Positions 24,973 through 39,763 of a DNA stretch of 39,763 nucleotides are shown here, one piece after another (the stretch's first letter is position 1; every line of letters starts with the position of its first letter). The notes under the pieces were generated by a model, which worked only from the letters and a program-made list of their open reading frames with translations, searched no databases and was not told where the DNA came from. The position numbers were made by a program, and so were the translations under genes. The stretch is from Candidatus Saccharimonadota bacterium. GTDB taxonomy: Bacteria > Patescibacteriota > Saccharimonadia > Saccharimonadales > UBA4665. Where the stretch lies: positions 1 to 39,763 of the forward strand of contig JACMNI010000049.1 in NCBI GenBank assembly GCA_014378615.1, in the 5' to 3' direction.

Positions 24973-25086
24973 ATGGCAAACTTGGATAAAATACTAACCA
25001 GATTTACCGATTCACGTTACGCAGACAGTATTGTAATACTACTTTCAGGAGTTGAGTTTGACCGCAAAACACAAAATAAGCCCTAG
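24973..25086 (+). CDS. possible 37-aa leader ORF overlapping the cyoA start
   Basis: This short ORF (MANLDKILTRF... to a TAG at 25084) starts about 5 nt after the predicted transcription start of the cyo operon, the same near-leaderless spacing used by other genes here. It runs across the cyoA Shine-Dalgarno (25047-25051) and TTG start (25058), ending 27 nt inside cyoA in another frame. Ribosomes on it would occupy or unfold the cyoA start region, so it could couple or limit CyoA production. It matches no family I know, and it could be a chance ORF. Confidence 0.4.
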   Translation: MANLDKILTRFTDSRYADSIVILLSGVEFDRKTQNKP

Positions 25087-25987
25087 TTTAGCTAAACTAT
25101 TGGTTCGTATGTTTGCTGGGCTTGGTGCCTTTAGCTTTCTGCTCTGGTTGCTACTACGAGGCCAAAATATTGCCATACTCCACTCTAAAGGCCCGATTGC
25201 TAGCCAGCAACGCGACCTAATAATCTGGTCTCTGATTGTAATTCTAGCCATTGCAGTGCCTACGGTACTGCTGTTGTATTTTACGGCTTGGCGCTACCGC
25301 GAATCGCATAGCTCATCGACGTATCACCCAGAAGCCAAAACTGGCAAAATATTTAATATTATTATCTGGGCGCTGCCGAGTTTAATGATGCTAGTGCTCG
25401 CTTTTACTTTAGTTCCATCAACGCATAAGCTACAGCCCAATAAAGCCTTGGCTGCACAAAAACCGTCAATAAACATCCAAGTCGTAGCAATGCGCTGGAA
25501 GTGGCTGTTTATATACCCTGAGCAGGGTATAGCCACTGTTAATTACGTGCAACTACCAAAGGACACTCCCGTGGCGTTCGACTTGACGGCTGACGATGCA
25601 CCAATGAGTTCATTTTGGGTTCCTAACCTATCGGGCCAACTTTATGCAATGACGGGACACATCAATCGACTAAATCTTATTGCCAATGTCAACGGTGACT
25701 ACCCGGGTCGCAGCGCTGAAATAAACGGTGCAGGCTTCGCTGGCATGCAATTTACGGCCCGCGTCAGCAGTACCGATGATTTTGAATCGTGGGTAGAAAC
25801 GACTAAGCAATCGTCGGCCTCACTTGACAAGACCGCTTACCAAACCCTAATAAAGCCCAGTGAGAATAATGAAGTGGAAACGTATTACCCAGTCGATGGT
25901 ACTCTGTACGCCGACGCTGTTATGAAATATATTGGCTCACATGGAAATAAGGCTGCGCACACAATGCACGACGAGGGAATGAACTAA
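25058..25987 (+). CDS. cyoA: cytochrome bo quinol oxidase subunit II
   Basis: This subunit of about 309 aa belongs to the heme-copper quinol oxidase. Two N-terminal TM segments (about 10-32 and 48-75) precede an outward-facing cupredoxin domain. FWVPNLSGQLYAMTGHINRLNLIA and the segment GAGFAGMQFTARVSSTDDFESWV match CyoA closely. The CuA Cys/His ligands are absent, as expected for a quinol rather than cytochrome c oxidase. There is no lipobox Cys, unlike E. coli CyoA. I choose TTG 25058, which lies 6 nt after AGGAG, over TTG 25052, which touches the AGGAG. The stop overlaps the cyoB ATG by one base (TAATG). Confidence 0.95.
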   Translation: MTAKHKISPSLAKLLVRMFAGLGAFSFLLWLLLRGQNIAILHSKGPIASQQRDLIIWSLIVILAIAVPTVLLLYFTAWRYRESHSSSTYHPEAKTGKIFNIIIWALPSLMMLVLAFTLVPSTHKLQPNKALAAQKPSINIQVVAMRWKWLFIYPEQGIATVNYVQLPKDTPVAFDLTADDAPMSSFWVPNLSGQLYAMTGHINRLNLIANVNGDYPGRSAEINGAGFAGMQFTARVSSTDDFESWVETTKQSSASLDKTAYQTLIKPSENNEVETYYPVDGTLYADAVMKYIGSHGNKAAHTMHDEGMN

Positions 25988-28080
25988 TGCGCGAATTTTG
26001 GCTTGGTCGCTTAACCAGCCACTCATTGCCCCACGACTGGGTAATGGTTGGTGGAACCGCCACGTTCATAGCCATGTTTTTGTTTGCAGCGGTAATTTTA
26101 ACGCGTACTAAGCGTTGGAAGTGGCTGTGGAATGATTGGCTTACTTCGGTTGATCCGAAAAAGATTGGTATCATGTACTTTTTGGTGGCTGGTTTTATGC
26201 TCATCCGCGGTGGCATCGATGTAATCTTAATGTGGCTCCAGCAAGTATTAGCAGTCGACGGCTCTCAAGGCATACTTTCGGCCGACCACTACCAGCAAAT
26301 ATTTACCGCGCACGGTAATATTATGGTGTTTTTTGTGGCTATGGGCTTTATCTTTGGACTAATAAACTATATCGTCCCGCTGCAAATAGGCGCCCGTGAC
26401 TTAGCGTCACCGCTCCTTAACACCCTTGGTTTCTGGCTCTATGTCGGCGGCGTAGTTATGATCAACATGTTCTTTGTGTTTGGCGGCGAGTACGCTGCTA
26501 CTGGATGGCTCGCTGTCGCCCCCCTATCTGGCATTGACTTCAGTCCTGGTGTGGGTGTTGATTATTGGATCTGGAGCCTGCAGATATCAGGTATTGGCAC
26601 AACTTTGGGCGCCATCAACTTTATTATGACAATTCTTAAGATGCGCGCTCCCGGTATGACGTTAGGGAAGATGCCGCTGTTTACTTGGGCCTCATTGTTT
26701 AGCATGTTAATGGCCGTAGCCGTGTTCCCGTTGTTAACGGCGACCCTCTTTTTACAATTTTTTGACCGCTACTTTGGGGCCCATTTCTTTACTGCTCTCG
26801 GCGGCGGCGACCCAATGATGTACACCAACTTAATTTGGATGTGGGGACACCCCGAAGTATACATTTTAATGCTGCCGGCTTTTGGAATATTTTCGGAGGT
26901 GGTTTCGACCTTTAGCCGTAAACCGATTGCCAGTTATACTGCCAACGTATTAGGTATGGCCGGCGTCTCTGTACTAGCTTTGTCGGTCTGGCTCCATCAC
27001 TTCTTTACGATGGGCGCTAGCTCCGACGTCAACGCCTTCTTTGGACTTGTAACACTAGTCATCTCCATCCCAACTGCCGTCCTGTTTTTCACTTGGATTG
27101 CCACCATGCACAAGGGTCTGATACGGTTCGATACGCCCATGCTCTGGTTCTTAGGATTCGTTACTATTTTTACTATTGGCGGCGTATCTGGACTGGTTCT
27201 TGCTTTTCCGCCTGCCGACTTTCAACTCCACAACAGCTTATTCTTAGTAGCCCATTTCCACTCCAATGTAATCGGCGGTGTATTATTTGGCATCTTCAGC
27301 GGCATTAGCTATTGGTTCCCCAAAATTGCTGGTTTCCGGCTCAACGAACGGATTGGACGTAACGCTTTCTGGTGCTGGATTATCGGTTTCTGCATGTCAT
27401 TTATTCCTATGTATATCCTTGGCATTATGGGAGCTACACGACGGCTTGATCACTATGAGAGTTCGACCGGCTACCAACCATTCTTCATTATTATGTTACT
27501 CGGTGGTATCGTTATAGCCGTTGGCTTGACGCTACAAATTGTACAGATTCTAGCTAGCATTATTCAGCGAGGGCATCTTCGCGACAACACCGGTGACCCG
27601 TGGAATGGCCGTACACTTGAGTGGGCGACAGCGTCACCGCCACCATTCTACAACTTTACAGTCATTCCGCATGTCATGACCCGAGACGCTTTCTTAGACA
27701 TGAAACGCCTGGGCCAGTTCGACCAGCAATATGAAGATATACTTATTCCCAAGAATACAGCCGTAGGTATTTATATCGCTATTTTAGCGTTCCTGGTAGG
27801 CTTCGGTTTTGTCTGGCACATCAATTCCTTGGTTGTGATCTCACTCATCGGTATCATCATCATTTTTGCTAAACGCGCCTTTAGCGAAGATTCGGAGTAT
27901 ACACTGAGGGCCGAAGAAGTTGAAAAACTAGAAGCGAAACGAATTGCTAAGGTACCGGCGCACGAAAAAGAAGTCAAGAGTTTGGCCGATGAAGAAGATA
28001 TGAGCGTTTGGGATTTTGTTCGTTATGTCATCACGTTTGCGATGGATATAATTCGTAACAAGAAGTGGAAAACATGGTAA
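25987..28080 (+). CDS. cyoB: cytochrome bo quinol oxidase subunit I
   Basis: This 697-aa subunit is the catalytic core that reduces O2 to water and pumps protons. The CuB and active-site motifs are intact: MWGHPEVYILMLP (His ligand, proton-path Glu, cross-linked Tyr), WLHHFFTMG (two CuB His), and VAHFHSNVIGG (heme ligands). The D-channel entrance appears in PLQIGARDLASPLLN, so it looks like a proton-pumping A-type oxidase. An extra N-terminal TM and a long C-terminal tail are typical of CyoB. It is in tight operon order cyoABCDE, and the next gene overlaps its stop. Confidence 0.98.
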   Translation: MREFWLGRLTSHSLPHDWVMVGGTATFIAMFLFAAVILTRTKRWKWLWNDWLTSVDPKKIGIMYFLVAGFMLIRGGIDVILMWLQQVLAVDGSQGILSADHYQQIFTAHGNIMVFFVAMGFIFGLINYIVPLQIGARDLASPLLNTLGFWLYVGGVVMINMFFVFGGEYAATGWLAVAPLSGIDFSPGVGVDYWIWSLQISGIGTTLGAINFIMTILKMRAPGMTLGKMPLFTWASLFSMLMAVAVFPLLTATLFLQFFDRYFGAHFFTALGGGDPMMYTNLIWMWGHPEVYILMLPAFGIFSEVVSTFSRKPIASYTANVLGMAGVSVLALSVWLHHFFTMGASSDVNAFFGLVTLVISIPTAVLFFTWIATMHKGLIRFDTPMLWFLGFVTIFTIGGVSGLVLAFPPADFQLHNSLFLVAHFHSNVIGGVLFGIFSGISYWFPKIAGFRLNERIGRNAFWCWIIGFCMSFIPMYILGIMGATRRLDHYESSTGYQPFFIIMLLGGIVIAVGLTLQIVQILASIIQRGHLRDNTGDPWNGRTLEWATASPPPFYNFTVIPHVMTRDAFLDMKRLGQFDQQYEDILIPKNTAVGIYIAILAFLVGFGFVWHINSLVVISLIGIIIIFAKRAFSEDSEYTLRAEEVEKLEAKRIAKVPAHEKEVKSLADEEDMSVWDFVRYVITFAMDIIRNKKWKTW

Positions 28081-28658
28081 ATCACAAAGCCCACCAGGCT
28101 GCCGCCGACGACCGGGTAATGTTTGGGTTCTGGGTCTACCTTATGACCGATTTACTAGTGTTCTCGGTGTTATTCGCCGTCTATGCTGTACTACACGGGA
28201 ATACCGTCGGCGGAGACGCCGGGCGTGACTTGTTTTCACTCCCATTAGCACTACAAGAGACAATTCTCCTCTTAACTAGTAGCTTTACCTGTGGTCTCGG
28301 TTTGTTGGCGGCACGTAGCTACAAGAAGTGGCAGACACTAATATGTTTTGGTATCACTTTCCTCTTGGGAGCACTCTTTTTGAGCTTAGAGATGAAAGAG
28401 TTTACTGAATTCATACGCGAGGGCCAGACGCTGCAGCTGAACGCCTTCCTATCCTCCTTCTTTGTTCTAGTGGGGACCCACGGACTACATATTACGTCAG
28501 GGCTACTGTGGATGGCGATTACCATGGCCTATATACTCAAGCGCGGACTTAATGCTCCACTCGTTCGCAAGCTGGCTCTGCTAAGTCTATTCTGGCACTT
28601 CCTAGATATTGTCTGGATTTTTATATTTACCATTGTTTATCTCGGAGCTTACTCATGA
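28074..28658 (+). CDS. cyoC: cytochrome bo quinol oxidase subunit III
   Basis: This subunit of about 194 aa has five TM segments. VMFGFWVYLMTDLLVFSVLF at the N-terminus and VGTHGLHITSGLLWMAITM plus the terminal WHFLDIVWIFIFTIVYL are signatures of heme-copper oxidase subunit III. I place the start at ATG 28074, whose first bases overlap the cyoB stop (ATGGTAA). A GTG at 28065 would add three residues. The stop overlaps the cyoD start (ATGA). The subunit stabilises subunit I and its proton uptake path. Confidence 0.96.
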   Translation: MVNHKAHQAAADDRVMFGFWVYLMTDLLVFSVLFAVYAVLHGNTVGGDAGRDLFSLPLALQETILLLTSSFTCGLGLLAARSYKKWQTLICFGITFLLGALFLSLEMKEFTEFIREGQTLQLNAFLSSFFVLVGTHGLHITSGLLWMAITMAYILKRGLNAPLVRKLALLSLFWHFLDIVWIFIFTIVYLGAYS

Positions 28659-29341
28659 GCACTATTGCGCCCCACGACGAGAACGAGCAGAAGACTGTGT
28701 CGTCGTATGTCGTTGGTTTTATACTGTCACTTATTTTTACCTTTACACCGTACTTATTAGTAGTAAACCACTATATAAGTGGCCGTGCATTACTAATCAC
28801 AATTCTTACATTCGCAATGGCTCAATTATTAGTCCAGGTAATCTTCTTCCTGCACCTAGGGCGCGGAGCTAACGCCAGATGGAATGTCTACTTTTTCGTC
28901 GGTACTTTTATAGCTATGCTGATCGTGGTCGTAGGATCGGTTGTTATTATAAGCAATTTACACAACAACGCGACCACACTAGATCAGACTAGGAAGATTA
29001 TTGATAGCGAGGGTATATATCAGGTCAGCGGCGAACTAACCGGTGCCTGCCAGGGGCGTCATACCAACCATCAAATTGTTATCAAGGCCGGCAAATCAAG
29101 TCCAATCCTAACTATCGCCGCCAAGTGCGATACACTAACCTTTGTTAATAAAGATGCGGTTGATGGCCAGATAATGTTTGGTACCCGCACTAAACAGACA
29201 ACATATGCTGGCTTAGATAAATTAGCCGTGCGCAAAGATCACACTAAAACCATCAGCCTATCAGAGACTGGAACATTCAAATTCTACGATTCGCTTAGGC
29301 CTGTGGTATCCGGGAGCTTTGCAGTCGTCGACGATAAATAG
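28655..29341 (+). CDS. cyoD: cytochrome bo quinol oxidase subunit IV fused to a cupredoxin-like domain
   Basis: The first about 105 residues are a normal CyoD: three TM segments (about 18-38, 45-66, 79-101) with VQVIFFLHLGRGANARWN between the second and third. CyoD proteins are usually about 110 aa, but this one continues to 228 aa. The extension (about 108-228) is hydrophilic, begins SEGIYQVSGELTGAC and ends with TGTFKFYDSLRPVVSGSFAVV, the strand pattern of a cupredoxin-like beta sandwich. The usual copper ligands (Cys-x-His and Met at the C-terminal loop) are missing; only Cys132 and Cys158 are present. The domain should face outward after TM3. GGAG upstream and the ATGA overlap with cyoC support the start. 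Confidence 0.88.
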   Translation: MSTIAPHDENEQKTVSSYVVGFILSLIFTFTPYLLVVNHYISGRALLITILTFAMAQLLVQVIFFLHLGRGANARWNVYFFVGTFIAMLIVVVGSVVIISNLHNNATTLDQTRKIIDSEGIYQVSGELTGACQGRHTNHQIVIKAGKSSPILTIAAKCDTLTFVNKDAVDGQIMFGTRTKQTTYAGLDKLAVRKDHTKTISLSETGTFKFYDSLRPVVSGSFAVVDDK

Positions 29342-29359
29342 AGACTATTGAGCTTACTA

Positions 29360-30232
29360 ATGATGACGTTCAAAGAAAAATGCAACGCGTATTACCGATT
29401 AACTAAGCCGGGGATTATTCGCGGCAACCTTATCACCGCCGCCGCTGGTTTTTTGTTAGCCGCCAAGCAAGATGTACCTTTCGAGCGGGGAATTCTTATG
29501 TTGTTGGGGCTCGGCTTCATTATTGCGTCAGCCTGTGTCAGCAATAATATCCTGGACCGCAAACTCGATAAAAAAATGACCCGTACCGTCAAGCGAGCCT
29601 TAGTTAGCGGCAGTATTTCGGTCCGGGGAGCCGCTATATTTGCAGCCGGCTTACTCCTGCTAGGCAGCCTTTTGCTTGGTATTGGGACAAACGTCTTAGC
29701 GCTTGTGACAGGGCTCATCGGTTATGTTGCCTATGTTGCCGTCTACGGCTATTACAAGCGTCGTTCTACCCTCGGCACGGCCGTTGGCAGTATTTCCGGG
29801 GCAATACCCCCAGTTGTTGGTTACGTGGCCGTAAGCGGCCGTATTGATACGGCCGCCATTATTCTGTTTGCCATTCTAGTCTGCTGGCAAATGCCTCATT
29901 TTTTCGCGATTGCTGTGTACCGGCTAAAGGATTATACCGCCGCCGAGTTACCGGTGTTGCCGGTCAAAAAAGGTCTTACTGCCACAAAGATTCAATCACT
30001 CGTCTATATAGTAGGGTACGGTCTAAGTAGCCTTGCCTTAAGTGCCTATGACTACACGGGTATAATTTATGCTGTGGTCATGACGGTAATATCTTTGGTC
30101 TGGTTAGGTTTAGCTACTAAGGGATTCTATGTTAAGGATAATGAAGCTTGGGCACGCAAGCTATTCTTTTTTTCACTAATAGCAATAACGGTGCAATCGG
30201 CGCTCATTGGCGCTAATGCCTTGCTGCCATAA
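29360..30232 (+). CDS. cyoE: protoheme IX farnesyltransferase (heme O synthase)
   Basis: This protein of about 290 aa is a UbiA-family membrane prenyltransferase that adds a farnesyl group to heme B to make the heme O used by CyoB. The first Asp-rich motif is NNILDRKLDKKMTRTVKRAL, with the characteristic DxxMxRT. The conserved YKRRSTLGTAVGSISGAIPP and CWQMPHFFAIAVYRLKDY segments follow, and about eight to nine TM segments are present. I prefer ATG 29360 over the TTG at 29348 because the latter adds only four residues and lacks a Shine-Dalgarno; ATG 29363 is also possible. It is the last gene of the cyo operon, convergent with the FAD dehydrogenase with 11 bp between stops. Confidence 0.95.
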   Translation: MMTFKEKCNAYYRLTKPGIIRGNLITAAAGFLLAAKQDVPFERGILMLLGLGFIIASACVSNNILDRKLDKKMTRTVKRALVSGSISVRGAAIFAAGLLLLGSLLLGIGTNVLALVTGLIGYVAYVAVYGYYKRRSTLGTAVGSISGAIPPVVGYVAVSGRIDTAAIILFAILVCWQMPHFFAIAVYRLKDYTAAELPVLPVKKGLTATKIQSLVYIVGYGLSSLALSAYDYTGIIYAVVMTVISLVWLGLATKGFYVKDNEAWARKLFFFSLIAITVQSALIGANALLP

Positions 30233-30243
30233 CTATTAAATTA

Positions 30244-31908
30244 TTAGAAGTGCTCGCGAATGTGGCTGAAGCTGTAATCCCAGTCGGCATCTGACTTTTT
30301 ATGTGGGTTGAAAATATTTGCGGGGTCGAAAATAGCTTTAACTTCTTTGAAGATATTGAGCACTTCGGTTCCAAATTGTTCCTCGAGCCACGGGCCACGA
30401 ACGAGGCCGTCATTGTGCTCGCCAGCCAAAGATCCACCATATTTCAAGACAAGCTTATCAACTTCTTTCATGCAGGGGAGCAGCTTGGCGCGCTCTTTTG
30501 GATCCTCGAGTTTCATCAATGGGATAATGTGGAAGTTACCGTCACCCATGTGACCGGCAATAGTAGCAAATAATTTGTATTTTTTTATAATGGCACGAAG
30601 TTCAGGCAAGAACTGCGGCATATGCTCGGGGTTTACGATCAAATCATCAATGAACGGAGCCGTGTGCTTATCTTTAACTTTGCTTCGTAGTAGCTGGAAA
30701 CTGCGACGGCGCATGATCCAGAACTTCTCGCTTTTAGCTTCAGTTGGATCTTCTTCAAAACCATTTATTTCGTAGCGAGCGCGGTGTTTTCCCAATTTCT
30801 TATGTAAGGCGTGCACCTTGTCGCGGACTTCTTGTTCGGTGTCACCGTCAAACTCCACCATAAGTATGAGTTTTGGAATGCCGCGCAGCAGTTGCAGACC
30901 GTCGGGAATTAAGGTCAGTAACAAGTGAATAAATTTAGCTGGCCCTAGCAGTTTCAAAAAGCTGGGCATAAAACGGATCGATAGGAAGAGTGTTTGGTCA
31001 TCGAATGATTCAAAAGTTGCTGGCTTGCTTTCAAGCACTTTCGGTATAAGCTCGCCCAGTTTATCGATGTCTTTTAAGAACAATACTAGTAGGCCATTGT
31101 GCTTGCGGTGTGGCACTAAGCGAAACGTGATGTCAGTTGTCATGCCTAGGGTTCCTTGTGAACCAACAATAAGTTTTTGCATATCAAATATACCGGTTCC
31201 ACGGTCCCAGACGCTCCATATGTTATAGCCCATAGAGTTCTTTGACACGCGAGGTTCGGCGGCTTTGATAACGTCGTATTTGGCCTCACACAGATCGTAT
31301 ATCCGCTTATACAGATTACCCTCAAAGTCACCTTGAGCCATCTTAATATCGAGTTCTTTTTTGTTGAGCGGTTTTACCGTATATTCATTGCCGTCGGCAA
31401 AAACAACTTGTAATGAGTTTACGAAATCACGAGTTTTACCAAATTCTAGCGACTTCTCGCCGCCAGCGTTATTGTTAACCATACCGCCAAGCGCGGCTAG
31501 GTCTCGAGAAGCTGGGTAGGATGGCATAATAGACCCTTGCTTCAATGTTTCCGGCTCGAAGTCGCGGTAGTAAACACCGGGTTGCGCGCTAGCTTCTATT
31601 GGACTGACTTTGCCAACTTTATTTAGGTGTTTCATAAAATCTATAATAATAGAGTCGTTGACGGCTCCCCCGGACATGCAAGTGCCAGCGCTGCGGCCCG
31701 TAATTGATAAATCTGGAATTGTTGGCTTTGAAGCGGCCACAGATTTGATTAGTAACTGCACATCGGCAGAGTCTTTTGGAAACATGACAACTTGCGGTTT
31801 GATTTCGAAGAGGGAGGCATCGTGGCTGTAAAAGTCGCGGGTAACGGGAGTATCGTCCATTTCACCTTTGAAGCCTGCTTCTATAAGTTTTTGTTTAAAA
31901 TCATCCAT
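30244..31908 (-). CDS. FAD-linked oxidase (GlcD/D-lactate dehydrogenase type)
   Basis: This 554-aa flavoprotein has an FAD_binding_4 domain followed by an FAD-oxidase C domain, as in glycolate oxidase GlcD and D-lactate dehydrogenases. The FAD pyrophosphate loop appears in ITGRSAGTCMSGGAVNDS, and LAALGGMVNNNAGGEKSLEFG follows. The C-terminal metal/substrate His motif is AGHMGDGNFHIIP, and the late motif AGEHNDGLVRGPWL matches the SGEHG region. No Fe-S cluster domain is attached. It probably oxidises a 2-hydroxy acid (perhaps D-lactate) and reduces quinone or another carrier; the substrate is inferred from family only. The ATG at 31908 is used since a -10 TAAACT ends 6 nt upstream, and TTG 31911 is dismissed. 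Confidence 0.9.
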   Translation of the reverse strand: MDDFKQKLIEAGFKGEMDDTPVTRDFYSHDASLFEIKPQVVMFPKDSADVQLLIKSVAASKPTIPDLSITGRSAGTCMSGGAVNDSIIIDFMKHLNKVGKVSPIEASAQPGVYYRDFEPETLKQGSIMPSYPASRDLAALGGMVNNNAGGEKSLEFGKTRDFVNSLQVVFADGNEYTVKPLNKKELDIKMAQGDFEGNLYKRIYDLCEAKYDVIKAAEPRVSKNSMGYNIWSVWDRGTGIFDMQKLIVGSQGTLGMTTDITFRLVPHRKHNGLLVLFLKDIDKLGELIPKVLESKPATFESFDDQTLFLSIRFMPSFLKLLGPAKFIHLLLTLIPDGLQLLRGIPKLILMVEFDGDTEQEVRDKVHALHKKLGKHRARYEINGFEEDPTEAKSEKFWIMRRRSFQLLRSKVKDKHTAPFIDDLIVNPEHMPQFLPELRAIIKKYKLFATIAGHMGDGNFHIIPLMKLEDPKERAKLLPCMKEVDKLVLKYGGSLAGEHNDGLVRGPWLEEQFGTEVLNIFKEVKAIFDPANIFNPHKKSDADWDYSFSHIREHF

Positions 31909-31914
31909 CAACTT

Positions 31915-31966
31915 AGTTTACCTGCTTAGGCTTACTGTTGCAAGATTCTAATGCTTTGTCTACAAT
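31915..31966. promoter_or_regulatory. symmetrical divergent promoter with one shared -35 (TTGCAA)
   Basis: The palindrome TTGCAA (31938-31943) reads the same on both strands. Exactly 17 bp away on the plus strand is TACAAT (31961-31966), which ends 10 nt before the NDH-2 ATG. Exactly 17 bp away on the minus strand is TAAACT (31920-31915), which ends 6 nt before the dehydrogenase ATG. The two respiratory genes therefore appear to share one -35 element. Confidence 0.6.
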
Positions 31967-31976
31967 GGTGTTTAAG

Positions 31977-33179
31977 ATGAAAAAAGAAAAAGTGCTGGTG
32001 CTGGGTGGTGGCTTTGGTGGAGTTAAAGCGGCCTTAGAATTAGCCAAAGACTCGCACTTTGCCGTTACTTTACTAAGCGACCAAACCGAGTTTCGTTACT
32101 ATCCGACGCTGTATCACACTGCGACTGGAGGCTCGCGAGCTAATTCTAGCCTAAGCCTTGCCGAACTTTTTTCAGATAAGCCGGTAAAACTGCAGCTAGG
32201 CGTAGCCGAGACTATTGATCGCAAAGCTAAAACTATCATTACAGCCGACGGCAGTACCCATGAATACGACACGCTTATCATTGCTTTGGGAGTCGTCACT
32301 AATTATTTTGGTATCCCGGGCTTACCAGAGTATTCATATACCATTAAATCTCAATCGGAAGTGGAACGCTTTAAAGCGCATCTGCATAAACAACTCATAG
32401 ACGATAATAAGCCTGACTTAAATTATGTTGTTATTGGCGCTGGACCAACCGGCATAGAGCTGTCGGGAGCTCTGCCTGCTTATTTAAAACAAATCATGAA
32501 AAACCACGGTCTGCGCCAACGAAAAGTGCACGTCGATTTAATCGAAGCCGCCCCCCGCTTACTACCGCGCTTACCGCTCGATGCCGCTCGAGCCGTCCAA
32601 AAACGCCTCAAAAAAATTGGCGTCAAACTATACGTGAATAGCATTGTTCAGGGCTTAACGCCAGATGAGTTAACGGTCAGTGGCAAACCGATTCGTTCAC
32701 ACACGGTGGTGTGGACTGCCGGCGTTACCAATCATCCATTTTTTGCGGCCAATCATTTCGTTATGATGGGTCGCGGTAAAGTCGCCGTAGATGCCTACTT
32801 ACAGACCGAAGAGAATATCTATATTCTTGGTGACAACGCCAATACTCCGTATAGCGGCTTAGCGCAAACCGCTCTCGCCGATGGCTCGTTTGTTGCTGAA
32901 AACTTGAAGCGTCGGGCTGACGGCAAAGACATGAAAAGTTATAAAGTGAAAAAATTCGTAACGGTAATACCGGCTGGCGATAAATGGGCCGCTGTAATCT
33001 ACGGCAATTTCCGACTTTATGGTTGGATTGGTTACGCATTACGTTCGGCTGCTGACTTTATAGGTTTCCGGGATCTGGAACCGTGGCGCCAGGCAACCAA
33101 GCAGTGGTTTACCGAATTTGGCCACCAAGAAGCCTGCGAAGTCTGTACTATAGCCGCCACCGCTGACCAAGCTCGTTAG
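31977..33179 (+). CDS. ndh: type II NADH:quinone oxidoreductase (NDH-2)
   Basis: This flavoprotein of about 400 aa oxidises NADH and reduces quinone without pumping protons. The N-terminal FAD-binding loop is VLVLGGGFGGVKAALEL, the second Rossmann (NADH) loop is YVVIGAGPTGIELSGAL, and YILGDNANTPYSGLAQTALADG is the conserved FAD-contact segment. The C-terminal part (IGYALRSAADFIGFRDLEPWRQATK) looks amphipathic, as in membrane-bound NDH-2 proteins, and ends in a short tail with ACEVC. I choose ATG 31977, directly before the first strand; the track start at 31938 lies in the promoter. It provides electrons for the cyo oxidase encoded nearby. Confidence 0.92.
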   Translation: MKKEKVLVLGGGFGGVKAALELAKDSHFAVTLLSDQTEFRYYPTLYHTATGGSRANSSLSLAELFSDKPVKLQLGVAETIDRKAKTIITADGSTHEYDTLIIALGVVTNYFGIPGLPEYSYTIKSQSEVERFKAHLHKQLIDDNKPDLNYVVIGAGPTGIELSGALPAYLKQIMKNHGLRQRKVHVDLIEAAPRLLPRLPLDAARAVQKRLKKIGVKLYVNSIVQGLTPDELTVSGKPIRSHTVVWTAGVTNHPFFAANHFVMMGRGKVAVDAYLQTEENIYILGDNANTPYSGLAQTALADGSFVAENLKRRADGKDMKSYKVKKFVTVIPAGDKWAAVIYGNFRLYGWIGYALRSAADFIGFRDLEPWRQATKQWFTEFGHQEACEVCTIAATADQAR

Positions 33180-33224: not shown

Positions 33225-36200
33225 ATGGCATCTAATTTTGATATAGAGTATAAACGGTTAAATTCGGCTCAAAAACAGGCCGTCGATGCAGTGGAAGGGC
33301 CCGTTTTGGTCGTGGCCGGTCCGGGTACTGGTAAAACTCAATTGCTAAGCTTGCGGGTAGCCAATATCTTAAAGCAAACCGACGTTAGTGCCAGCAGCAT
33401 TCTGTGTCTTACATTCACAAATTTCGCGGCTGCGAACATGCGCTCCCGCTTAAATGCGCTCATAGGCCCCAGCGCACACCGGGTAGTAGTTCGTACATTC
33501 CACAGCTTTGCGGCTGAGATTATGAATCAGTATCCTGACTATTTCTGGAATGGAGCCCGGCTGAGCATTGCGCCGGACGCAACGCAAATAGAAATCATCC
33601 AAGACATTCTAGGATCGTTACCGTTGGACAATCCATTGGCCAGCCGCTTTGCCGGCTCACTGACAGCTATAAAAGATGTTCAAGAGGCCCTTAAGCTCAC
33701 GAAAGAAGCCGGCTTAACGCCGGGAAAATTAGCCGCCATGATCAATTACAACACGGCGCTTATAAATCAAATAGAACCCCAGCTCATCGAACTGCTAAGC
33801 CCTACACTTAGTGCTAAGCGCTTACCCGAATTAGAGGCGGCGGTACTAGGTATGGCCGATAATGATATCGCCGATATCGTGAAGCCGCTGAAATCGTTAA
33901 CCGATGTTCTCAAATCTAGTATTGTGGCCGCCGTAGCGGCCGACGCCGGTACTAAAAAAACGACTAATACTGGTGCCTGGAAGCGACGTTGGCTCCAAAC
34001 GGTCAACGGCCAGAAGGGCATGTACGACGAGCGTCGACGCAACGCCTGGTGGTTGGCAGTAGCTAACGTCTACGCCGACTACCGTGACGCCCTACATCTG
34101 CGCGGTTACTACGATTACGCCGATATGGTTGTAGAGGTAATTAGTCAATTACAGCAGGAACCCGAGCTACTTAGTAGCGTGCAAGAGCGATTTTTATACG
34201 TATTGATTGATGAGTTTCAGGATACGAACGCGGCGCAACTGCAGCTGGCCCACTTAGTCGCTACTCACTACAGTAATGCCGACCAGCCCAATTTAATGGC
34301 TGTCGGTGATGACGACCAGTCCATTTACGCGTTCAACGGGGCCGAGTTAAATAATATGCTTAATTTTAAGGAGACGTATCCCGCAACCAAAACCATAGTC
34401 CTGACCGAAAACTACCGCTCGGCGCAAGCTATATTAGACACCGCACAGGCCATAATAGAACAGGCCGACGATCGCTTAGTAAACCGTCAGCCGGAACTGG
34501 TAAAGCACTTAACAGCTGCATCAGATGCGCCGGCAGGAACTATCGAACATCGTCACTACCCAACCCGCGACCATGAATTGTTGGCTGTAGCCGACGCCAT
34601 AACCAAAGCCTGGCCGCTGCCCGGCGAACAAACGTTGGCGGTGCTGGCCCGCAGTCATGATAGTTTGCGCCGCTTGAGCGTACTCTTGAATGACCGACAG
34701 GTAGCAATTAATTACGAACAGCAAAATAATATTTTAGAGTCCGAAGTCGTTCAACTGGTATTTTTGCTAGCGCAAACTGTACAGGCCATCGCTGAAGGCG
34801 ACGAACGACAGGTCAACGTCTTGCTCGCCAGTTTGGTTCGTTATCCGGTCTGGGGTATTTCACCGACAGCTCTATGGCAGCTCGCCACGGCCAATTACGC
34901 CGCCCCCCATTGGCTAGATAGCCTGTTGCAGCATGATGATGAGGCTCTGGTAGCACTCGCCAACTGGTTACTTTGGTTATCGCAATCTAATGCGCCTTTG
35001 CCGCTACTAATCGAATACCTACTGGGCCTACGAACCGGTGAGCACTTAACAAGTCCTATTAGGGCGCACTATTTAGCGCTGCCGATTACTACTACCTATA
35101 TGGAAGCCTTGTCAGCCATACAATTATTAGTTACGCTGAGCCACGAATTTTCTGAAGGGGAAGCCGGCAAATTACATGACTTTACAAGGTTTGTAGATTT
35201 GAATAGTGGCCTCCAGCGCACCGTGACCGACCAGTCATGGTTTACCAGCGGACAGAACGCGGTCCAGCTTATGACCGTTCACAAATCGAAGGGTTTAGAG
35301 TTTGACACTGTCTATTTATTAGACGCCGTAGAAGATACCTGGCAGCCCCACAGCGTTAGCCGTAAACCGCCCGCAAATTTGCCGCTGCAGCCCTACGGAG
35401 AGCTCTACGACGATTATGTACGATTATTGTACGTTGCCGCCACCCGCGCTAAAAGTTCTCTAATCGTTGCTAGTTTTGGCGCCAACGAGCAAGGCAAAGT
35501 TGTCCTGCCGACGCCGCTCGTCACTAATGCCCTAGAAACTGTTACGGTTCCCGGTAATGACGTAGCCTCAGCTACAGTCGTACTGGAATCAGCACTGCGA
35601 TGGCCACGACTAGAAACAAGCGATGAAAAAATATTGCTCGCGAGCCGCTTAGATGACTTCTACCTGAGTGCCACGGGCATGCTGCAATTCTTGAACATTG
35701 CTGGCGCCGGGCCGCAAAACTTTTTGGAGAACCAGCTATTACGCTTGCCTGGGCCAACTTCAGCTGTAATGAGCTACGGTACGGCTGTTCATGCCGGGTT
35801 GCAGGCGGGGCAATTACTTGTCAATGACGATATGCCTCCATTACCAGGCGTCCTCGAGCGGTTTGCAACGGTACTTCGGGGCCAGCACTTGGCGGAAGAC
35901 GAACTGGAACGTTATCTACCGTTTGGCGAAGCCATGTTAACCGATTTATTCACCACTAAATGTTTCGCTCTGCCCAAGGGCGGCCTGGCGGAAGTGACAT
36001 TGAATGATATTTATATTGGCGAGGCCCGCCTCGGTGGTAAACTCGACCACATACTAACGCGCGACAACCTGGTCACTATATCCGACTATAAGACCGGCAA
36101 GCCGTTAAACAGTTTCGCCACTCGTGACCAAACAAAAGTAGTCAAAGCCTGGCAACACCGAACGCAGCTATTGTTCTACGCCTTACTTGTCAGCGGCGCG

Positions 36201-36440
36201 AGCCGATTTGCCGGTGCTACAGCTTTAGAAACCCAGATGCTATACGTAGAGGCCGAAACAGATCGTGAATTGGCATTACAGTTAATACCGTCACAGGCGG
36301 AAATGGAACGGATAGAAGGCCTGGCCGTAGCCGTCTGGCAACACGTGACTGATCTAAATTTCCCCGATACAAGCAAGTATACGACCGATATTACTGGCAT
36401 TATGGCCTTTGAAGACGATTTACTCTCAGGCGTAATCTAA
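33225..36440 (+). CDS. UvrD-like superfamily 1 helicase fused to a RecB-type nuclease domain
   Basis: This 1071-aa protein has an SF1A helicase core and a C-terminal PD-(D/E)XK nuclease. Helicase motifs in order are the Q-motif LNSAQKQAV, Walker A VAGPGTGKTQ (31-40), motif Ia CLTFTNFAAANMRSR, motif II LIDEFQDTN (about 330), motif III VGDDDQSIYAFNGA, motif IV LTENYRSAQAI, motif V MTVHKSKGLEFDTVYL and motif VI LYVAATRAKSSL. The nuclease has GGKLDHILTR followed by ISDYKTGKP (about 935-960), the catalytic D...D-x-K pattern. No Fe-S cysteines typical of AddB are visible. It probably processes DNA double-strand ends like an AddAB/RecB-type enzyme, perhaps as the main end-resection enzyme of this reduced genome. 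Confidence 0.93.
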   Translation: MASNFDIEYKRLNSAQKQAVDAVEGPVLVVAGPGTGKTQLLSLRVANILKQTDVSASSILCLTFTNFAAANMRSRLNALIGPSAHRVVVRTFHSFAAEIMNQYPDYFWNGARLSIAPDATQIEIIQDILGSLPLDNPLASRFAGSLTAIKDVQEALKLTKEAGLTPGKLAAMINYNTALINQIEPQLIELLSPTLSAKRLPELEAAVLGMADNDIADIVKPLKSLTDVLKSSIVAAVAADAGTKKTTNTGAWKRRWLQTVNGQKGMYDERRRNAWWLAVANVYADYRDALHLRGYYDYADMVVEVISQLQQEPELLSSVQERFLYVLIDEFQDTNAAQLQLAHLVATHYSNADQPNLMAVGDDDQSIYAFNGAELNNMLNFKETYPATKTIVLTENYRSAQAILDTAQAIIEQADDRLVNRQPELVKHLTAASDAPAGTIEHRHYPTRDHELLAVADAITKAWPLPGEQTLAVLARSHDSLRRLSVLLNDRQVAINYEQQNNILESEVVQLVFLLAQTVQAIAEGDERQVNVLLASLVRYPVWGISPTALWQLATANYAAPHWLDSLLQHDDEALVALANWLLWLSQSNAPLPLLIEYLLGLRTGEHLTSPIRAHYLALPITTTYMEALSAIQLLVTLSHEFSEGEAGKLHDFTRFVDLNSGLQRTVTDQSWFTSGQNAVQLMTVHKSKGLEFDTVYLLDAVEDTWQPHSVSRKPPANLPLQPYGELYDDYVRLLYVAATRAKSSLIVASFGANEQGKVVLPTPLVTNALETVTVPGNDVASATVVLESALRWPRLETSDEKILLASRLDDFYLSATGMLQFLNIAGAGPQNFLENQLLRLPGPTSAVMSYGTAVHAGLQAGQLLVNDDMPPLPGVLERFATVLRGQHLAEDELERYLPFGEAMLTDLFTTKCFALPKGGLAEVTLNDIYIGEARLGGKLDHILTRDNLVTISDYKTGKPLNSFATRDQTKVVKAWQHRTQLLFYALLVSGASRFAGATALETQMLYVEAETDRELALQLIPSQAEMERIEGLAVAVWQHVTDLNFPDTSKYTTDITGIMAFEDDLLSGVI

Positions 36441-36507: not shown

Positions 36508-37311
36508 CTAACGCTTGTTAGAAGTTTTCTTAGCACTAGTACGAGACTTAACTGCACCGGCTTTAGCGGTCACAGCCTTTGGCTTACGAATTGGCTTAAC
36601 GGTGGTAACGGTAGTTTGAGTTACTTCTGCATCTTTACCAACTTTGCGTTGTAAAACATCTGGGTCGGAAGCACTTGAACCCGTAACGTCTCCATTGCGT
36701 GGTGCAAACAAGAGACCGTATAAGTTAGCGCCAACTAGGGCACCGACGACTGGTCCGAGTAAGTAAGCTAGGGTAGACGCTTTAACACCAAAAGCTACGG
36801 CTGGGTTAATAAGTCCAACCGATGCTGATGAAGCAGCAATACTACCAAGCATGTAGGCAATTCCGGCAGCGGCAGCCGCAAGTCCAACGGTAAAGCGCTG
36901 GAAAAGGGCAGCTGAATAACCGAAGGCTAACAGTCCGGCACCAACGGCCTCGGCGGTGAACACACGCCAGCCAAATTTGCCACCGATGTCTTGCAGCTTA
37001 TTCTTAACGAAATAGCTGTAGAGCAAGTACGCGGCGTAGGCACCGGCAATTTGCACGACTACATATAGTAACGTACGAATGAGGGTTACTCGGCGAGCCG
37101 TAAAAAGGGCTAGGGTTAGGGCAGGATTAAAGTGCGCACCTGACACTCGGTAAAAGGCTAATACCATTGCAGCTATGGTTAAGCCGGCAGCGGCAGCCAC
37201 AAAGAATGGCACACCAATTGTAGAGCGTTGTACGCTCAATATTAAAAGGGTCAAAAACCCGGTACCAAGAAACTCAGCCACTAATGCAGCTATCTTGCGT
37301 CGTTCAAACAT
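36508..37311 (-). CDS. aquaporin (MIP family) with atypical second NPA motif
   Basis: This 267-aa MIP channel has six TM segments and both half-helix motifs: SGAHFNPALTLALF (NPA at 62-64) and VGLINPAVAFGV (NPA at 169-171). Nearly all water and glycerol channels have Arg right after the second NPA, where it forms the selectivity filter; here it is Val172. The C-terminus is a long Lys/Arg-rich tail (about 220-267; KPIRKPKAVTAKAG, KSRTSAKKTSNKR), unusual for bacterial aquaporins. The ATG at 37311 is chosen because GGAGG lies 5 nt upstream; the GTG at 37323 is dismissed. Transported solute is uncertain. A bidirectional terminator follows. Confidence 0.9.
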   Translation of the reverse strand: MFERRKIAALVAEFLGTGFLTLLILSVQRSTIGVPFFVAAAAGLTIAAMVLAFYRVSGAHFNPALTLALFTARRVTLIRTLLYVVVQIAGAYAAYLLYSYFVKNKLQDIGGKFGWRVFTAEAVGAGLLAFGYSAALFQRFTVGLAAAAAGIAYMLGSIAASSASVGLINPAVAFGVKASTLAYLLGPVVGALVGANLYGLLFAPRNGDVTGSSASDPDVLQRKVGKDAEVTQTTVTTVKPIRKPKAVTAKAGAVKSRTSAKKTSNKR

Positions 37312-37340
37312 TTGAACCTCCACTTAGTTAATACCACAAG

Positions 37341-37346: not shown

Positions 37347-37394
37347 CGCAGTTTGCAGCTTTGTAAAGTGTTAGAGCTTTTAGAAGGCAAAAAC

Positions 37395-38516
37395 TTAAGC
37401 AGCTAGCCTATCCGTGGCTCCGTTCGGACGACGAATTCCGACTTCGTGTGAACCGTCTTTACTGATACACAGAAAGATAGCGACAGCCATCCCGAAGCGG
37501 GCGTGGACATAGCGAGATTGCGCCTCCTTAGAGTAAGGGAAGAGTTTGGTAGCTACCTCTCGGCTATACCACAAATCGTAATTGAACATCTGTAATCGAC
37601 CCTCTGACCGCGCACTAACGTGGTCTTTGTTTAGCGTCGTGTAAGGTACTTCATTAATCATTAATCCCACGCCATTGTGAGGCCCCGTCAGTATCGGAAG
37701 TCCTTGTGGATTTTGCCGCTTCATGACTTCTTTTTGCTTATCTATACTCAAAAAGTAATCTGGCACTGCCAACAGATAGGTATTATTTCCGACAAAACTT
37801 ATAAAATGGTCTGGTCTAAAAGAGTTACCTAAAACAGCCCGGGATATGTCGTCTAAAGTTACAATATTATTTGGATTAACTTTACGGTGTGCATCTTCCG
37901 CCTTTAACACAGCAGCGCAACCAATACTGTTTGGATCAGTATGATTGTTGTCGTCATCGTGGTAGGCGGCTTTGAACCCGGTGTCTACGTTTCTGCTGGC
38001 ATAAGCTTTAATGTCAGCCTCCATTGAAGCTTCGGTGTAATCCTGTAAACTTTCACCTGTACATAGTCGCAGGGCGAGAGCGCCGCCTAATGTGCCGCCC
38101 GGTATTTGCGGGCCAAGGCTCGACCGATAGACTTCGAACATACTATCTTCGTAGCCGACATCTGGACGTTCATCAATACAGCGAATTATCGCACCTGGCG
38201 TGGTGCGATAATAATCATGTGTAATATTCTCAAATAAAGTATTGATCTCTTGTTGCGTAATCTCTCCACTAGCGAGACGCTCTTTAACCGACCAACCTCC
38301 CGACCACTCGGCGCGCTGGTTAGGTATTAAATTACCAATTTCTCCAACAACTGTAACAATTCCTTGCTCGCCTGACATGCGTTCTAGCTCTTCCATATTT
38401 GCTCTTACAAGCGCGCTTTTACCAATATTTTCTCCCAAGTATCGGGGCACGTGAAGGCCCGACCCAGTCATTTCATATAATTTTGACACATGTACCTTTA
38501 CTATTAAATCTCGCAA
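37395..38516 (-). CDS. putative beta-carbonic-anhydrase-like metalloprotein (unrecognised family)
   Basis: This protein of up to 373 aa matches no family I can name securely. IIRCIDERPDVG (Cys113-x-Asp115-x-Arg117) has the CxDxR form of the zinc-binding and catalytic-dyad motif of beta-carbonic anhydrases. About 75-85 residues later, AAYHDDDNNHTDPNSIGCAA offers His186/His192 and Cys200 as the remaining ligands, wider apart than the classical HxxC and more like the carboxysomal CsoSCA arrangement. Between them is a Gly-rich QIPGGTLGGALALRL. No signal peptide or TM is seen. The start is uncertain: TTG 38516 (extended -10 TGCTATAAA, 11 nt away), GTG 38489 after AAGG, or ATG 38471. A CO2-hydrating activity is an inference. 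Confidence 0.6.
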   Translation of the reverse strand: MRDLIVKVHVSKLYEMTGSGLHVPRYLGENIGKSALVRANMEELERMSGEQGIVTVVGEIGNLIPNQRAEWSGGWSVKERLASGEITQQEINTLFENITHDYYRTTPGAIIRCIDERPDVGYEDSMFEVYRSSLGPQIPGGTLGGALALRLCTGESLQDYTEASMEADIKAYASRNVDTGFKAAYHDDDNNHTDPNSIGCAAVLKAEDAHRKVNPNNIVTLDDISRAVLGNSFRPDHFISFVGNNTYLLAVPDYFLSIDKQKEVMKRQNPQGLPILTGPHNGVGLMINEVPYTTLNKDHVSARSEGRLQMFNYDLWYSREVATKLFPYSKEAQSRYVHARFGMAVAIFLCISKDGSHEVGIRRPNGATDRLAA

Positions 38517-38527
38517 AACAAATGATT

Positions 38528-38536
38528 TTTATAGCA
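38528..38536 (-). promoter_or_regulatory. extended -10 of the carbonic-anhydrase-like gene, short leader
   Basis: TGC-TATAAA on the minus strand ends 11 nt before a TTG at 38516, which suggests that the TTG may really be used as a near-leaderless start. Confidence 0.5.
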
Positions 38537-38617
38537 CTCCTCGCTCTTGGGTGAAAATGTGATTATATACCATGATCACATAGGAATCAGGTGTCGAATC
38601 CAGCATAAACCTGATAC

Positions 38618-38637
38618 TATAATTGCAAATTAAGGAG
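38618..38637 (+). promoter_or_regulatory. -10 hexamer and Shine-Dalgarno of mscL
   Basis: TATAAT (38618-38623) and AAGGAG (38632-38637) lie upstream of the ATG at 38644, with 6 nt between the Shine-Dalgarno and the start. Confidence 0.6.
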
Positions 38638-38643
38638 CCACAT

Positions 38644-39057
38644 ATGTTCAAAGAATTTAAGAAATTTATATTACGAGGAAATGTGGTCGACCTAGCGGTG
38701 GCCGTTGTTGTTGGTGCGGCTTTCAACTCTGTTGTGCAGTCGTTTGTTAAAGATATGATCACACCGCTAGTGTCAGCTGTGTATCAGCAGCAAAAATTTT
38801 CAGAGGCCTACTTTAGTTTTCGCGGTAGTCACTTTTTGTATGGCGATTTCATTAATAATTTAATTTCGTTCTTCATTATTGCCGCCGTCGTCTTTTTCTT
38901 CGTAGTCCAGCCCATAAACAAAGTAGTTACCATTGCGAACCGCAAAGAAACTACAGCTGAACCTTCTACCAAAAAATGTCCCGAGTGCTTGAGCGTTGTT
39001 CCAAAAGCGGCGACCCGTTGCGCCTTTTGTACCAGCAAGCTAGTAGTGACTAAATAG
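38644..39057 (+). CDS. mscL: large-conductance mechanosensitive channel with C-terminal zinc ribbon
   Basis: This 137-aa pentameric tension-gated channel releases solutes under osmotic downshock. The N-terminal amphipathic helix and pore helix (FILRGNVVDLAVAVVVGAAF...) and the periplasmic loop are typical, and TM2 is near residues 72-92. The C-terminus, in E. coli a helical bundle, is instead a likely zinc ribbon: CPECLSVVPKAATRCAFC (Cys112, 115, 126, 129). The ATG at 38644 is preferred over 38623 because AAGGAG lies 6 nt upstream. The 3' end overlaps the small convergent gene at 39050 by 8 bp. Confidence 0.95.
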   Translation: MFKEFKKFILRGNVVDLAVAVVVGAAFNSVVQSFVKDMITPLVSAVYQQQKFSEAYFSFRGSHFLYGDFINNLISFFIIAAVVFFFVVQPINKVVTIANRKETTAEPSTKKCPECLSVVPKAATRCAFCTSKLVVTK

Positions 39058-39346: not shown

Positions 39347-39763
39347 TTATTGCTTATTGCGGCGGCGCTTAAGATTAGCTACTTGTATACGGACGGCGTG
39401 TCGGTCTACTAGGGCCTGAGCGTGCTCTAAGCTGACCTGGTCGGTGGCCTCAGCCTTCATCTTTTTAGCGCGCTCCATAGCAGCTGCAGCTTCAGATTCG
39501 TTAATTTCGTCGGCATGGTCCGCTTCGTCTACAAGAATACGTAGTTTGTTATTTTCAACTTCAATGGCGCCACCATTTATGGCAAAAAACTCTCGCTGGG
39601 CATCGGTATCACGTGCTTGGCGTCGCACAGCCACCACACCCGTTTTAGCAACCGCTATTAGCGGCATGTGGTGGTCGAGTATACCAATCTCACCGTCGAG
39701 GGTCGGAACAGTCACTTCATAGACGTCATCGTCAAATTTAGAGCCGCTAAGCGATACTAATTG
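39347..39763 (-). CDS. atpC: F-type ATP synthase epsilon subunit (5' truncated by window end)
   Basis: This is the epsilon subunit of the F1 central stalk, which couples and regulates ATP synthesis. The track begins at an internal GTG (39715), but the same frame stays open to the window edge and encodes a proper epsilon N-terminus (QLVSLSGSKFDDDVYEVTVPT), so the gene starts beyond 39763. The beta-sandwich domain contains PTLDGEIGILDHHMPLI, the hallmark segment of the family. The C-terminal helical hairpin (SEAAAAMERAKKMKAEA ... ALVDRHAVRIQVANLKRRR) is complete. As usual, atpC should be near the end of the atp operon, followed here by a small unknown gene. Confidence 0.95.
   Translation of the reverse strand, partial: QLVSLSGSKFDDDVYEVTVPTLDGEIGILDHHMPLIAVAKTGVVAVRRQARDTDAQREFFAINGGAIEVENNKLRILVDEADHADEINESEAAAAMERAKKMKAEATDQVSLEHAQALVDRHAVRIQVANLKRRRNKQ

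Follow-up and report, generated by a model that had tools for sequence, protein, structure and literature searches.

A putative bacterial branch of the zeta-class (cadmium) carbonic anhydrases in an exchangeable gene slot of Saccharimonadia

The cadmium (zeta-class) carbonic anhydrase CDCA1 of the diatom Thalassiosira weissflogii (PF18484; PDB 3boh, 3bob, 3uk8, and 7bez) has a fold that was described as new among carbonic anhydrases (CAs) in a 2015 review, according to which its homologues had been identified only in diatoms (PMC4413181), and a review from 2022 placed the zeta-CAs only in diatoms and coccoliths (PMC9570166). In the literature that we searched, which was a limited set, PF18484 appeared in one paper, on diatoms, and database annotations of bacterial CDCA proteins may exist. 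The metal site of CDCA1 is built of a C-x-D-x-R motif followed by a His and then by a Cys ligand, and the same residues, in the same order, occur in the protein described here, which will be referred to as the window protein. Its Cys2His metal site and Asp-Arg dyad are also shared with the beta-CAs (PF00484) and CsoSCA; in the classical beta-CAs, however, the His and Cys ligands are spaced as HxxC, unlike in the window protein.

The window, i.e., the whole stretch of DNA analyzed (39,763 nucleotides), originates from a Candidatus Saccharimonadota genome of 787 kb, assembled in 52 contigs. The open reading frame (ORF) of the window protein comprises 373 codons with zero internal stops and opens with TTG. 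This start is uncertain (translation could also begin with the GTG of codon 10 or the ATG of codon 16), and residues 1–28 are disordered in the AlphaFold model. The location of the gene, its motif residues, and its neighbors is given in Table 1.

Table 1. Features of the carbonic anhydrase-like (CA-like) gene and its surroundings in window coordinates.
Feature	Position	Strand	Basis
UvrD-type helicase/nuclease, far end of the conserved slot	33225..36440	+	PF00580, PF12705
MIP-family (aquaporin-like) channel, downstream, 71 bp from the CA-like gene	36508..37323	-	PF00230, E 9e-22
Replaced cassette (DNA similarity to same-genus genome G005 lost)	37380..38642	.	Both flanks align at 72–74%
CDCA-like (zeta-class carbonic-anhydrase-like) protein, 373 aa	37395..38516	-	ORF list, homologues, predicted fold
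C200, putative third metal ligand	37917..37919	-	Invariant in 48; aligned to CDCA1 Cys
H192, non-conserved, not the ligand	37941..37943	-	Alignment of homologues
H186, putative second metal ligand	37959..37961	-	Invariant in 48; aligned to CDCA1 His
CIDER motif, residues 113–117: putative metal ligand C113 and D115-R117 dyad	38166..38180	-	Conservation; CDCA1 alignment
MscL mechanosensitive channel, transcribed divergently from the CA-like gene	38623..39057	+	PF01741, E 6.4e-35
Epsilon subunit of the F1Fo ATP synthase (atpC), truncated by the end of the window	39347..39763	-	PF02823, E 3.4e-19

With the window protein as the sole query, homologues were detected in 25 of 99 relatives, and the number rose to 47 of the 99 with a profile of 48 sequences; their identities to the window protein are 16–31%. 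The alignment of these 48 sequences shows D115 and R117 in 46 of them and no variation at C113, H186, C200, or T294, so that the motif is not due to chance. The first-pass annotation had recognized CIDER as a C-x-D-x-R signature accompanied by a downstream His/Cys pair, and the alignment bears it out. It had left the choice of the His ligand between His186 and His192; the alignment settles it for the former, which is invariant in the 48 homologues, and the latter drops out, as it is not conserved. The window protein also deviates at several near-invariant positions (E116 for Gly, A184 for Gly, L204 for Asp, and G282 for Glu) and, because of these departures and its failure to match PF18484, could be weakened or altered. 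In the slot proteins of two other genomes (L010 of G051 and L011 of G028), Cys/His/Cys is kept and CIHAG replaces CxDGR, with the loss of the Asp-Arg dyad.

No significant match of the window protein alone was obtained in Pfam, NCBIfam, or PDB, and PF18484, the Pfam CDCA model, gave no hit to it. The CDCA family was reached through sisters from the same slot that pass PF18484, not through the window copy: 22 of 25 family members matched this model at a loose limit, and one of the slot proteins (L027) reached 110 bits, the cut-off being 29.2. Searched against the PDB, profile A3 retrieved CDCA1 chains at E-values of 2.6e-10, 1.6e-9, and 3.3e-9, and nothing else below 0.7. In this alignment, KCVDGR of CDCA1 corresponds to CIDER, the His of HGDHSSDMLGCG to H186, and the Cys of GCG to C200; the layout counted there for CDCA1 is Cys, 52 residues to His, and 10 to Cys, the last spacing being 14 in the window protein. 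A downstream GxHxE...N region is also common to CDCA1 and the slot family. When the window protein was modeled with AlphaFold (pLDDT 83.3, pTM 0.85) and the model compared with the PDB by Foldseek, five matches with E < 0.001 were obtained, all of them to CDCA1, with moderate TM-scores of 0.53–0.60 by target length, and CDCA1 was the only significant fold match. On this predicted model the window protein has the CDCA fold, and it carries the Cys-His-Cys residues in CDCA order along with the C-x-D-x-R dyad (D115 and R117). Judged by sequence and modeled structure, it is a member of the zeta-class (cadmium) carbonic anhydrase family and not of the beta class or CsoSCA. The two proteins nevertheless differ, as the window protein is bacterial and single-domain, whereas the solved structures of CDCA1 represent three separate repeats; it is also longer (about 330 ordered residues versus about 210 in the CDCA1 domain, with extra helices after C200) and has Glu where CDCA1 has Gly in CxDGR.

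The idea of a divergent carbonic anhydrase-like family, put forward in the first-pass annotation, thus finds support in residue conservation as well as in the profile and fold searches. The profile and structure comparisons that it called for returned a CA-type fold, although of another class than the beta-CA or CsoSCA expected there, and the wide His-Cys gap, which it had taken as a CsoSCA-like trait, is a part of the layout of CDCA1.

The His-Cys spacing is not uniform among the slot relatives, for both HxxC forms (L160, L174, L177, L148, and L165) and wide ones, up to >20 residues (L153), were found. Alignments of the HxxC forms could be matched to the main family along the greater part of their length (E-values of 8.9e-18 and 8.4e-14), which suggests that the His-Cys loop easily changes its length. 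A second slot family (cl11), with CxDPR or CxEPR and mostly HxxC, was also distinguished (L072, 6157–7065; L074, 4415–5272; L077, 6678–7718; L165; and L178); it is a distant homologue of the CA-like family according to hhalign (E 8.4e-14), and three genomes carry the two genes in tandem. Neither beta-CA nor CDCA structures were retrieved from the PDB with profiles A6 and A7, and modeling of the HxxC relative A6 from the slot gave a pLDDT of 37, too low for use. A link between the beta and zeta classes by way of these slot variants is only suggested; such natural loop variants would be useful for relating the beta- and zeta-type metal sites.

The gene order atpC – [CA-like] – MIP channel – UvrD is conserved across Saccharimonadia and recurs in named records. 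Among the 21 loci compared (window included), the atpC cluster is present in 20 and the MIP protein cluster in 16, and in the loci listed the CA-like and MIP genes lie on the same strand, 17–137 bp apart. Another 37 slots were inspected, about half of which hold a CA-like gene, and in many of the others atpC runs directly into the MIP gene. As it is absent in about half of the relatives, the CA-like gene is not indispensable. Farther from the slot, the window encodes COX1-4-type quinol oxidase components (COX2, COX1, COX3, and COX4) with a UbiA-family gene (25052–30232), an FAD-linked oxidase (30244–31911), and an NDH-2-like pyridine-nucleotide oxidoreductase (31938–33179). The genes of the region 25052–33179 encode a short chain for aerobic respiration, and the genome is a reduced one. 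The bacterium, a member of Saccharibacteria, is small and probably host-dependent.

Comparison with the same-genus genome G005 revealed that the proteins flanking the slot are 82–93% identical to those of the window and the slot protein is 25% identical, and that DNA similarity ends at position 37379 and resumes at 38643. The slot proteins of both genomes were placed in different clades, and the AU test rejected joining them (p 0.0001). Because the clades are split by this test and the DNA similarity stops near the gene edges, in-place replacement is favored, and ordinary fast drift of one ortholog was rejected. The slot gene is thus shown to be an exchangeable cassette between atpC and the MIP gene, with the caution that in the tree of homologues the window protein sits on a long branch. 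Small ORFs (about 100–190 aa), usually transcribed divergently beside the gene, co-vary with the subtype of the slot protein (grouping as L080, L150, and L153; L154, L159, and L169; and L160 and L174), as if they were exchanged together with the CA-like gene. In genome G001 (L150), the small ORF is retained and the CA-like gene is absent. In the slot gene of another same-genus genome (L167 of G003), an in-frame stop separates two ORFs, which reflects either a broken gene or a sequence error. Mobile carriage of the gene was also considered and rejected, as neither IMG/VR (screened with the A5 patterns) nor plasmids (tblastn with L007) contained a homologue.

Taken together, we consider the window protein to be a bacterial, single-domain representative of the cdCA (zeta carbonic anhydrase) fold family with a Cys-His-Cys site, which would hydrate CO2, and we estimate the probability of this reading at about 0.62, since sequence, profile, fold, the sisters passing PF18484, gene order, the neighboring respiratory genes, and the absence of alpha- and beta-CAs agree. 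As to this last point, the search covered the alpha and beta classes: no alpha-CA was matched in the 99 relatives and no beta-CA above the cut-off. The only beta-CA-like signal in these relatives was a weak Pro_CA match below the cut-off, with an internal stop (L138, G080:C31:91217-91636). In the proposed mechanism, C113, H186, and C200 would hold a divalent metal (here more likely Zn than Cd), the D115-R117 dyad would orient the metal-bound water and help to deprotonate it, and the resulting hydroxide would attack CO2, giving bicarbonate and a proton. The enzyme would presumably act in the cytosol, balancing CO2/bicarbonate and pH beside the ATP synthase and the short respiratory chain, and the adjacent MIP channel might pass water or CO2. 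If so, bacteria devoid of the usual alpha and beta enzymes may possess a carbonic anhydrase after all, and the gene order would link this candidate with ATP synthase and with a channel for water or gas.

In-place swapping, on the other hand, is odd for a housekeeping enzyme. The replacement by members of distant clades, the co-variation of the small divergent ORFs with the slot subtype, and the loss of the Asp-Arg dyad in L010 and L011 would all suit a slot protein whose main role has ceased to be enzymatic and which has become a diversifying protein with a metal site (a sensor, a regulator, or a part of a conflict system), exchanged as a unit with a small cognate partner. This is unlikely, as nearly every copy retains the residues of catalytic type in spite of a low identity to the window protein, the searches for defence and phage families gave stray weak matches only, none of which fits, and no small partner ORF lies between the window copy and MscL. 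Slightly less likely again is a metalloenzyme of the CDCA fold that would act on a different small molecule, such as CS2 or COS, a kind of substrate also used by related CAs, with the hydration of CO2 as a minor activity. The title of one paper ascribes CS2 hydrolase activity to zeta-CAs, and with fold and site being identical, the substrates are inseparable by sequence; genes for sulfur compounds were, however, not noticed near the gene, whose neighbors are those of the ATP synthase, MIP, and MscL. The class named by the first-pass annotation, a classical beta-CA or CsoSCA, would account for C-x-D-x-R with His and Cys and for the HxxC spacing of some slot relatives, but it is very improbable, given that neither PF00484 (Pro_CA) or beta-CA structures nor CsoSCA were matched in any of the searches (Pfam, sequences of the PDB, profiles, and folds) and that no recognized carboxysome gene was seen among the neighbors. 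DabA (PF10070), a subunit for inorganic carbon uptake, resembles the window protein in joining C-x-D-x-R with a wide His-Cys gap (Cys351, Asp353-Arg355, His524, and Cys539 in DabA2; PMC13144422). Yet DabA2 exceeds 800 residues, has an added helical domain, and pairs with the membrane partner DabB (PMC13144422), whereas the much smaller window protein matched neither PF10070 nor, among significant fold matches, any DabA, and no DabB-type gene was found beside it or among the scanned neighbors, so that a DabA-like role is hardly conceivable.

Concerning the distribution of the family, a PF18484 match (E 1e-3) was present in 40 of the 295 genomes screened from the class Saccharimonadia, and in 29 of these it exceeded the cut-off. 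In a phylum-wide draw it was matched in 12 of 380 genomes, nine of which are the genome of the window or members of its order, the three outside being weak. Such a diverse and large bacterial branch in the candidate phyla radiation would widen the known range of the zeta class and bears on the origin of the diatom gene. The scan of named genomes yielded 21 loci, mostly from Saccharibacteria, together with several high-GC contigs labeled Actinobacteria, which lack the atp flanks and whose copies nest within the saccharibacterial clade. Mis-binned saccharibacterial contigs are an unlikely source of the latter (GC of 0.55–0.73, atp flanks absent), although most are MAGs. The actinobacterial copies are rare, as a draw of 395 genomes of this class gave no match besides the centre genome itself. 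Since actinobacteria are hosts of cultivated Saccharibacteria (PMC10633639), transfer from saccharibacteria to actinobacteria is a reasonable reading. A more far-reaching and rather doubtful proposal is that the CDCA-like metalloenzymes of the atpC–MIP slot in Saccharibacteria form a family exchanged at a high rate, in which every member is paired with a small partner of its own and the ligand spacing ranges from beta-like (HxxC) to zeta-like (wide). The exchange would reflect an unknown role in conflict or host adaptation, and this bacterial reservoir would then be the source of the diatom cadmium enzyme and of the rare copies in actinobacterial hosts. The sole copy from an isolate, that of Propioniciclava sinopodophylli KCTC 33808 (L137), is partial and devoid of the CxDxR part, and it is possibly a decaying transferred copy.
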